A stretch of 64,000 bases of DNA, taken from assembly GCA_028285585.1 (NCBI GenBank), contig JANQOU010000006.1, positions 496,001 to 560,000 on the forward strand, given 5' to 3'. Positions 50,139-51,978 of the stretch are shown here, in pieces. This stretch comes from Acidimicrobiia bacterium (GTDB taxonomy: Bacteria > Actinomycetota > Acidimicrobiia > Spongiisociales > ZC4RG35). The position numbers and the translations under genes were made by a program. Positions within the stretch are counted from its first letter, which is position 1; every line of letters begins with the position of its first letter. The notes beneath the pieces were generated by a model. That model did not search any database, was not told the origin of the DNA, and saw only the letters and a program-made list of their open reading frames with translations.

Positions 50139-50190
50139 GTCGCGCTGACCGACACGCCTTGCTATAGCAACCTGTGTCGCTCAGCGCGAC
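50139..50190. repeat. 52-bp near-perfect palindrome centred on TTGCTATAGCAA (copy 2)
   Basis: The arms are GTCGCGCTGACCGACACGCC and CCTGTGTCGCTCAGCGCGAC, mismatching at only a few positions, with TTGCTATAGCAA (50159-50170) at the centre. It lies in the divergent promoter region between the enoyl-CoA hydratase gene and the selenoprotein operon. Confidence 0.8.
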
Positions 50191-50251: not shown

Positions 50252-51220
50252 GTGTCCAAGCTCCTGGAAGCTCCGGTGCATCCGCGGCCCGACGCAGTCG
50301 CCGCCGCAAGAGCGCAGTTCGACTACCTGGCTTCCCCGGGAGCGGTCCTCACAGGCGAGCAGCGCGTTGCCCTCGCCGAAGCTGCCCGCAACGGCGATCC
50401 GGGCGACCAGCTCCAGACACTGGCTCATCACCTCTACACGGAGCCCGCCACGGTCCACGAAGAGCATGTCAGGGCAGCGGCCGACTTCCACGGCGACCCT
50501 GGCACCGTAGAGGCGGTTGGGATCGTCGCCCGTCTCTCTTCGGTCGACAGGATTCACAACGTGCTCGGTGTCGAACTGGAGCATCTGCCTGAGCCGAGCC
50601 ACGGCGAGCCGACCGGTGACATCGCCTCTGGGTTGAAACGACGCAGAGGGTTCCTGCCCAAGCCACCCGGCGAGATCCCTGTGACCCTTGACCTCGTCCC
50701 CGCTGAAGGAGATGCTTTGCGGGCGATGTTCGGCCCGATGTACATGACCGAGGAAGAGATGGGCGACCCCTTCTTCGGCCGTGACCTAGGTCTCAACACG
50801 CCTCAACTCGAGACTGTCGCAGCCAGGATCTCCCTGCTGAACCAATGCTTCTACTGAGTGTTCAGTCATGCCAGGCGGCTCAGTTGGAGCGGCGAGGAAC
50901 TCGGGTACGACATCGATATCGCTGCGCTGGGTGGTGAAGACGTCGACCTGGGAGTGCCGGGTGGCAAAGCACTGATCGATCTGGTCGACGCATTCTTCGA
51001 CGGGGCGCCCGAAAACCAAGAAGAAGCCCGGCGACAGGTTCTCGAAGAACTGGGCCCGGAATCACTGTTCGACACCGCCACCGTGTACGGCAACTTTGAG
51101 ATGATGAACCGAGTGGCGGAGGGCACCGGGATAGGCATCCCGAAACAGTGGGTCGAGCGATGGCAGTGGATGGTCGACGCCCTCAACCTCCGGGACGTCA
51201 TGAAAAGCCAGCAGAGTTAG
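50252..51220 (+). CDS. Predicted AhpD-like selenoprotein (CxxU), read through TGA at 50855-50857
   Basis: Reading TGA as selenocysteine joins two frames into one 322-residue protein of the AhpD/carboxymuconolactone decarboxylase fold. The segment ETVAARISLLNQC199-FY-U202-VFSH206 matches the AhpD active site CxxCxxxH, with Sec in place of the second Cys; the His is at the expected spacing. The downstream part begins without a ribosome-binding site and stays in frame for 121 codons. After TGA the RNA can fold as TTCAGT/GTTGGA, a 3x3 internal loop and GCC-AGGC-GGC, a SECIS-like stem. The start is GTG; a longer frame upstream reads through a palindromic repeat. The likely role is thiol/selenol peroxidase or redox enzyme. 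Sec-synthesis genes are not in this window. Confidence 0.82.
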
Positions 51221-51229
51221 GGTGATTCC

Positions 51230-51349
51230 GTGAAGCGCTACTCCCCTCTGATCCTGATCGTTGCCGCGATCGCATTGATCGCCGCCTTGCGCAAGGCCGA
51301 CAGCGACTCCTTGCCAGAGGAGACCTGGACGCCAGTCGAGCCTTCGTGA
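51230..51349 (+). CDS. Small membrane protein (39 aa) in the selenoprotein operon
   Basis: A GTG ORF encoding VKRYSPLILIVAAIALIAAL and an acidic tail of 19 residues. It is a basic N-terminus, one transmembrane helix and a short outward or cytoplasmic tail. It starts 9 bp after the selenoprotein stop, and its TGA overlaps the next start (GTGA). No family is known. The tight packing argues that it is real. Confidence 0.6.
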   Translation: MKRYSPLILIVAAIALIAALRKADSDSLPEETWTPVEPS

Positions 51350-51978
51350 GAGTTGGGGTTCTCGTAACAGGGGACATCGCAGTTCGGGCGGCACACTCCC
51401 TCGCGGCCGACCCATTGGTGGACGAGGTCGTCGTCATCGGGCCGGCCAGAAGCAAGTCATTTGCCGTAGTCGACTCGGCCGATGAATGCGACCTGCTGAT
51501 AGGCAACGGATCCGATGCACCCAAGCGGGCACGCAAGCTCGGAGTGCCGCTGGTCTGGGATGGGGAAGAGGCAGAGGAAGGTGTTCATGTCTGGGGGGCC
51601 AGCCCGCAAGGCCTGACTCTGGCTCTCGCCGCTCGCGAGTCGGATCCGAGGCTCGTCGCGGTGGCACATCCCGACCTGGATTCGGGCTCAGACCACCAAG
51701 CGCGCTTTCCCGACCCAATCGGCCGGCTCGATGTGACTGACGGTGTGTATGCCGGTCAAAGGCTTGCTTCAGCCTCATCTCCAGACGCGTTCGCCGCCGC
51801 GTTGGCGGTTGGCGCCGACAGACGGGTGACCCTGGTTGACCACGGAGCGTTCATGTCGGGTGTGGCCCTAGCCGCAGGTGTCGCCGTAGCCGGCGAGTCA
51901 CCCGCTCCGGTGTGGGACGACGCCCTCACTTATCTCAAAGCTGCCACCGCCATGGGCCTAGTCATGGCCGAAGACTGA
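51346..51978 (+). CDS. Unknown Rossmann-like protein of the selenoprotein operon
   Basis: A 210-residue protein. The N-terminus MRVGVLVTGDIAVRAAHSLAADPLVDEVVVIG looks like a dinucleotide-binding beta-alpha-beta unit. Further on are CDLLIGNGSDAPKRARKLGVPLVWDG and a C-terminal helical region with VDHGAFMSGVALAAGVAVAG. I recognise no family. It is coupled to the preceding small membrane protein by GTGA. Its stop codon lies at the left edge of the second inverted-repeat element. Confidence 0.7.
   Translation: MRVGVLVTGDIAVRAAHSLAADPLVDEVVVIGPARSKSFAVVDSADECDLLIGNGSDAPKRARKLGVPLVWDGEEAEEGVHVWGASPQGLTLALAARESDPRLVAVAHPDLDSGSDHQARFPDPIGRLDVTDGVYAGQRLASASSPDAFAAALAVGADRRVTLVDHGAFMSGVALAAGVAVAGESPAPVWDDALTYLKAATAMGLVMAED

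Follow-up and report, generated by a model that had tools for sequence, protein, structure and literature searches.

The window, by which we mean the whole 64,000-nucleotide stretch of DNA that was analysed, contains two open frames that together resemble an AhpD-like protein and are separated by one in-frame TGA. The question raised by this locus is whether the TGA terminates translation or is read as selenocysteine (Sec). The reading frame has the following features.

50252 to 51220, plus strand: predicted AhpD-related selenoprotein gene, 322 aa with Sec as residue 202, GTG start and TAG stop
50855 to 50857, plus strand: predicted Sec-encoding TGA codon, in the context C199-F-Y-U202-V-F-S-H206; TGA in 36 of 37 loci read and TGC in the other

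The GTG at 50252 is a putative start, chosen by homology and position. Reading of the frame from this codon to the TAG at 51218-51220 detected a single stop, the TGA at 50855-50857, and the read-through peptide around it (LNQCFY-U-VFSHARR) carries the motif CFYUVFSH, or C-x-x-U-x-x-x-H. When listed as separate ORFs, the first half is 227 aa long, counted from an earlier GTG at 50174, and the second is 120 aa long. The initial annotation had proposed that both frames form a single AhpD-like protein, that the TGA sits at the position of the second redox Cys, that a His follows at the AhpD spacing and that the second frame has no ribosome-binding site of its own. The last point agrees with the sequence upstream of GTG 50858, the first codon of the 120-aa half, where no purine-rich ribosome-binding site was found; the other three were borne out by homologues. 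The mid-gene stop codon is almost certainly read as selenocysteine, judging from the sequence comparisons, and the gene would then be a genuine further case of a selenoprotein family already on record.

A survey of 296 genomes of the class was performed with the curated cut-off of NCBIfam family NF041238 (175 bits). Matches over this cut-off were present in 45 genomes, with exactly one in-frame TGA in 44 of these and none in genome G245. The G245 locus and 36 non-redundant TGA loci, with that of the window counted among them, were read directly. All 36 had the TGA at the same codon, within C-[FH]-[YF]-U-x3-H, which excludes chance as its source, and G245 had TGC at this site. Relatives were 23 to 60% identical to the window protein, and identity was similar upstream and downstream of the TGA, the two closest giving 0.57/0.60 and 0.56/0.59. 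In alignment A1 (35 sequences), C199, U/C202 and H206 were invariant, with the His four residues past U202. Inspection of position 202 for Cys, a check suggested at the outset, detected this residue in seven relatives in all (L052 and L079-L084); six of these were further relatives in named genomes, including Marinomonas sp. MED121, an uncultured Acidimicrobiales and an uncultured Bermanella, retrieved with a search pattern that demanded Cys at the site, and for the last three of the six the match is confined to the AhpD core. A single-protein scan of the genome contigs and a plasmid search each returned no match.

The capacity of the window's genome (G000; 2.59 Mb in 14 contigs, 96.9% complete) for Sec insertion was then evident from four genes.

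C4:427785-428864: selA, 348 bits
C4:428912-430657: selB, directly after selA, 347 bits
C14:80024-80953 (L018): selD, 374 bits
C13:95901-95992: tRNA-Sec, anticodon TCA (UCA)

The presence of selA, selB, selD and tRNA-Sec, all four of which had been anticipated from the window alone, indicated that the genome is equipped for making selenoproteins. The active-site codon of selD is an in-frame TGA (HGAGUGCK), so that selD is itself a selenoprotein gene, and a hairpin, GGCUCAG-GUU-CUGAGCC, lies downstream of this TGA. Across the class, SelA matches were detected in 206 of 296 genomes (~70%), 203 of them over the curated cut-off; the count of 206 is slightly too high, because the matches in G134, G149 and G163 are weak (E ~3e-4 to 5e-4) and are probably to other PLP enzymes. 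SelA was found in 43 of the 44 TGA genomes compared with 163 of 252 other genomes (Fisher p = 7e-7), and the single TGA genome with no SelA match (G232) is an assembly that is 90% complete. The initial annotation had described selenoproteins as rare in actinobacteria; for this class that view does not hold, the machinery being common, and Sec use is not exceptional here, contrary to belief.

Two further observations concern Sec use outside this locus. Many genomes of ~1 Mb (family f12, genus g53) have a shorter AhpD-like gene with a frame of ~190 to 200 aa and exactly one TGA, and most of these genomes also have SelA, which suggests that small genomes of the class use Sec widely. Furthermore, the window's genome contains a second AhpD-like gene outside the window (C4:659190-659570, L086), a 194-residue open frame with one in-frame TGA, the motif NDCHY-U-VTHH and then a strong CCGGCGCGGUCUGCGCCGG hairpin; this gene is probably another selenoprotein.

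The sequence downstream of the window TGA was examined for a bacterial Sec insertion element (bSECIS).

50878 to 50890, plus strand: likely bSECIS core hairpin, GCUC-AGUUG-GAGC, with G at loop position 2 and 24 nt between TGA and loop
50871 to 50897, plus strand: extended stem around the core, -13.3 kcal/mol by RNA folding, outer pairs partly conserved

A hairpin of the form GCUC-N-G-NNN-GAGC, with a five-base loop, was present 21 to 33 nt after the TGA in all 36 TGA genes, one of which has G-U as its outermost pair. All four GCUC/GAGC pairs and the loop G were kept in 35/35 distinct sequences, and none of the seven Cys homologues had this hairpin. The codons of the hairpin were also fixed: Leu +8 was encoded by CTC in 36/36 genes (44% elsewhere), Ser +11 by AGC in 35/36 (21% elsewhere) and Ser +9 by AGT in 12/12 (4% of all Ser codons of these genes), with the proviso that the sequences are related and multiplied codon frequencies overstate the odds. 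With identities of 23 to 30%, shared ancestry alone is an unlikely cause of the fixed codons. As the codons are fixed even at synonymous sites, the hairpin at 50878-50890 is likely to be the SECIS. The core stem is almost invariant and hence indicates synonymous constraint rather than compensatory covariation. The 51-nt fold from the TGA onward was not more stable than shuffled sequence (z = 0.18), and the case for a SECIS therefore rests on conservation and position, not on energy.

The published bSECIS model has a loop of 3 to 9 nt with G in positions 1-2, located 16 to 37 nt after the UGA, an upper stem of 4 to 16 bp and an MFE of at most -7.5 kcal/mol (PMC13188914). The window hairpin falls within these limits, with the loop AGUUG, a spacing of 24 nt and a core of 4 bp, and with -13.3 kcal/mol once the extended stem is included. 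The initial annotation was right to place a SECIS-capable stem-loop after the TGA but drew a different hairpin (UUCAGU/GUUGGA plus GCC/GGC). Checked one pair at a time, the drawn hairpin was not conserved, its individual pairs being retained in between 9 and 35 of the 35 distinct sequences, and it was rejected; it and the conserved one are mutually exclusive, because both use the same GUUGG bases. An Rfam search of 50800-51000 gave no meaningful match. A genome-wide scan for a TGA followed by the hairpin pattern gave 15 matches and its reversed control 17; on its own, therefore, the pattern does not pick out selenoproteins. Of the 15, the window gene is the only one in which two long frames are joined and a CxxU motif is present. 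Codon bias and the hairpin were also used to look for additional Sec candidates in the window; none was convincing, and this result is not evidence of absence, because the filter misses the known gene too. The near-fixed core with its unusual synonymous codons is a lineage-specific feature that can be used in judging candidate members of the family.

These data bear on two readings in which selenium has no part. The TGA would be a true stop if the locus were a pseudogene, contained a sequencing error or comprised two separate genes, and no stop codon is commoner in the window than TGA, which ends 35 of 49 long ORFs there, with the GTG of the C-terminal ORF following directly. This reading, to which we give practically no credence, is refuted by the 36 loci with TGA at the same codon, some of them only 23% identical. 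The C-terminal half is also conserved as well as the N-terminal half, and the two halves were apart in none of the homologues read. Furthermore, in the AlphaFold model a helix of residues 200-217 spans the TGA site and carries U202 and H206, so that a product ending at the TGA would lack the larger part of the catalytic helix, its His and all that follows. Conservation of the frame would equally be expected if genome-wide recoding or nonsense suppression put Trp, Cys or some other selenium-free residue at the TGA. This second reading is very improbable, since TGA otherwise acts as an ordinary stop in the window, all of the Sec machinery, tRNA-Sec among it, is encoded in the genome, the sole non-TGA locus over the cut-off has Cys, and the conserved hairpin agrees with the bSECIS model. 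Annotation that is unaware of Sec would split this gene inside its active site, and a true Sec codon can be recovered by reading the raw sequence.

We conclude with very high confidence, on sequence grounds, that the locus encodes one 322-residue AhpD-related selenoprotein, predicted to be made by SelB- and hairpin-driven Sec insertion at the UGA and likely to be a redox enzyme. SelB carrying Sec-tRNA(UCA) would bind the hairpin downstream of the UGA, and Sec would be put in at this codon instead of termination. Sec would occupy the second position of an AhpD-type redox pair (C199-x-x-U202), and the proton relay would likely be H206. Given this arrangement, the most likely reaction is reduction of a peroxide or other oxidised substrate, and from the family of the protein we infer a selenenylsulfide cycle between C199 and U202, with peroxide as the likeliest substrate.

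The AlphaFold model of the read-through protein, with Sec modelled as Cys, had a mean pLDDT of 96.2. A profile search of the PDB matched AhpD-type peroxidase-related proteins over the C-terminal half (6k40, E 5e-14; 2pfx, E 9e-14). With Foldseek, AhpD entries were detected at a probability of 1.00 but an E of only 0.06, and single-domain AhpD proteins aligned over ~125 to 175 columns. The best PDB fold match by E-value was Sestrin2, a two-lobed AhpD relative, whose alignment spanned the two halves of the protein (347 columns, probability 0.95) in a match that was weak (E = 0.05, TM 0.44, rmsd 11). Two ORFs lie downstream of the selenoprotein gene.

51230 to 51349, plus strand: small ORF, 39 aa, with one hydrophobic segment; its stop codon and the GTG of the following ORF overlap
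51346 to 51978, plus strand: 210-aa ORF, in the same direction as the selenoprotein gene

The 39-aa ORF is a possible operon partner. The 210-aa ORF had no Pfam match and was 62% identical to L054:4705-5337, which lies beside the selenoprotein homologue in genome G013, where the 210-aa gene, DUF3566 and gyrA occur in the same order beside the selenoprotein gene. At the remaining loci examined, of which many have short flanks only, these neighbours were not detected.

The Sestrin2 alignment over both halves raises an alternative for the function alone, one that can hold together with Sec insertion: a selenoprotein that is not a peroxidase but a bi-lobed AhpD-fold protein acting in sestrin-like sensing or in another redox role. 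We regard this as unlikely, as the weak match may reflect only the shared helical AhpD fold. More doubtful again is a specific form of it, in which the protein would be a sestrin-like tandem AhpD-fold selenoenzyme that keeps its redox site, with Sec, in the C-terminal lobe only and acts with the 39-aa and 210-aa neighbours in a redox pathway, rather than a plain alkyl hydroperoxidase.

The AhpD-type selenoenzyme that we prefer can be compared with three known systems. The C-terminal half aligns with the peroxidase-related AhpD-like family TIGR01926 (PDB 6k40, 2pfx, 2oyo and 2prr), which has CxxC and a His four residues on; in the solved proteins compared here, Cys takes the place of Sec and there is no counterpart of the additional N-terminal ~145 residues of the window protein, whose match to TIGR01926 is below that family's cut-off. 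The window hairpin resembles the bSECIS model (PMC13188914) in its small apical loop, early G, spacing and stem of at least 4 bp, and nothing notable differs, the GCUC/GAGC core being nearly fixed across the class. The closest likeness is to the equivalog NF041238 (AhpD_rel_CFYUT, 'alkylhydroperoxidase-related (seleno)protein'), which the whole protein matched near full-length at 195.2 bits against the cut-off of 175, and with which it shares the CxxU motif, the CFYU core and Sec at the same place. This family was first reported in 2005 as 'hypothetical protein 1' of the Sargasso Sea selenoproteome, with a CxxU motif and SECIS (PMC1088965), and is listed as an AhpD-related protein in a 2026 review (PMC13188914); the family is therefore not new. 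The window protein differs in having V rather than T after the Sec (V in 15 of the 36 loci read), and otherwise by ordinary divergence. As predicted from these comparisons, the window gene is a solid selenoprotein call and a further member of this known family.
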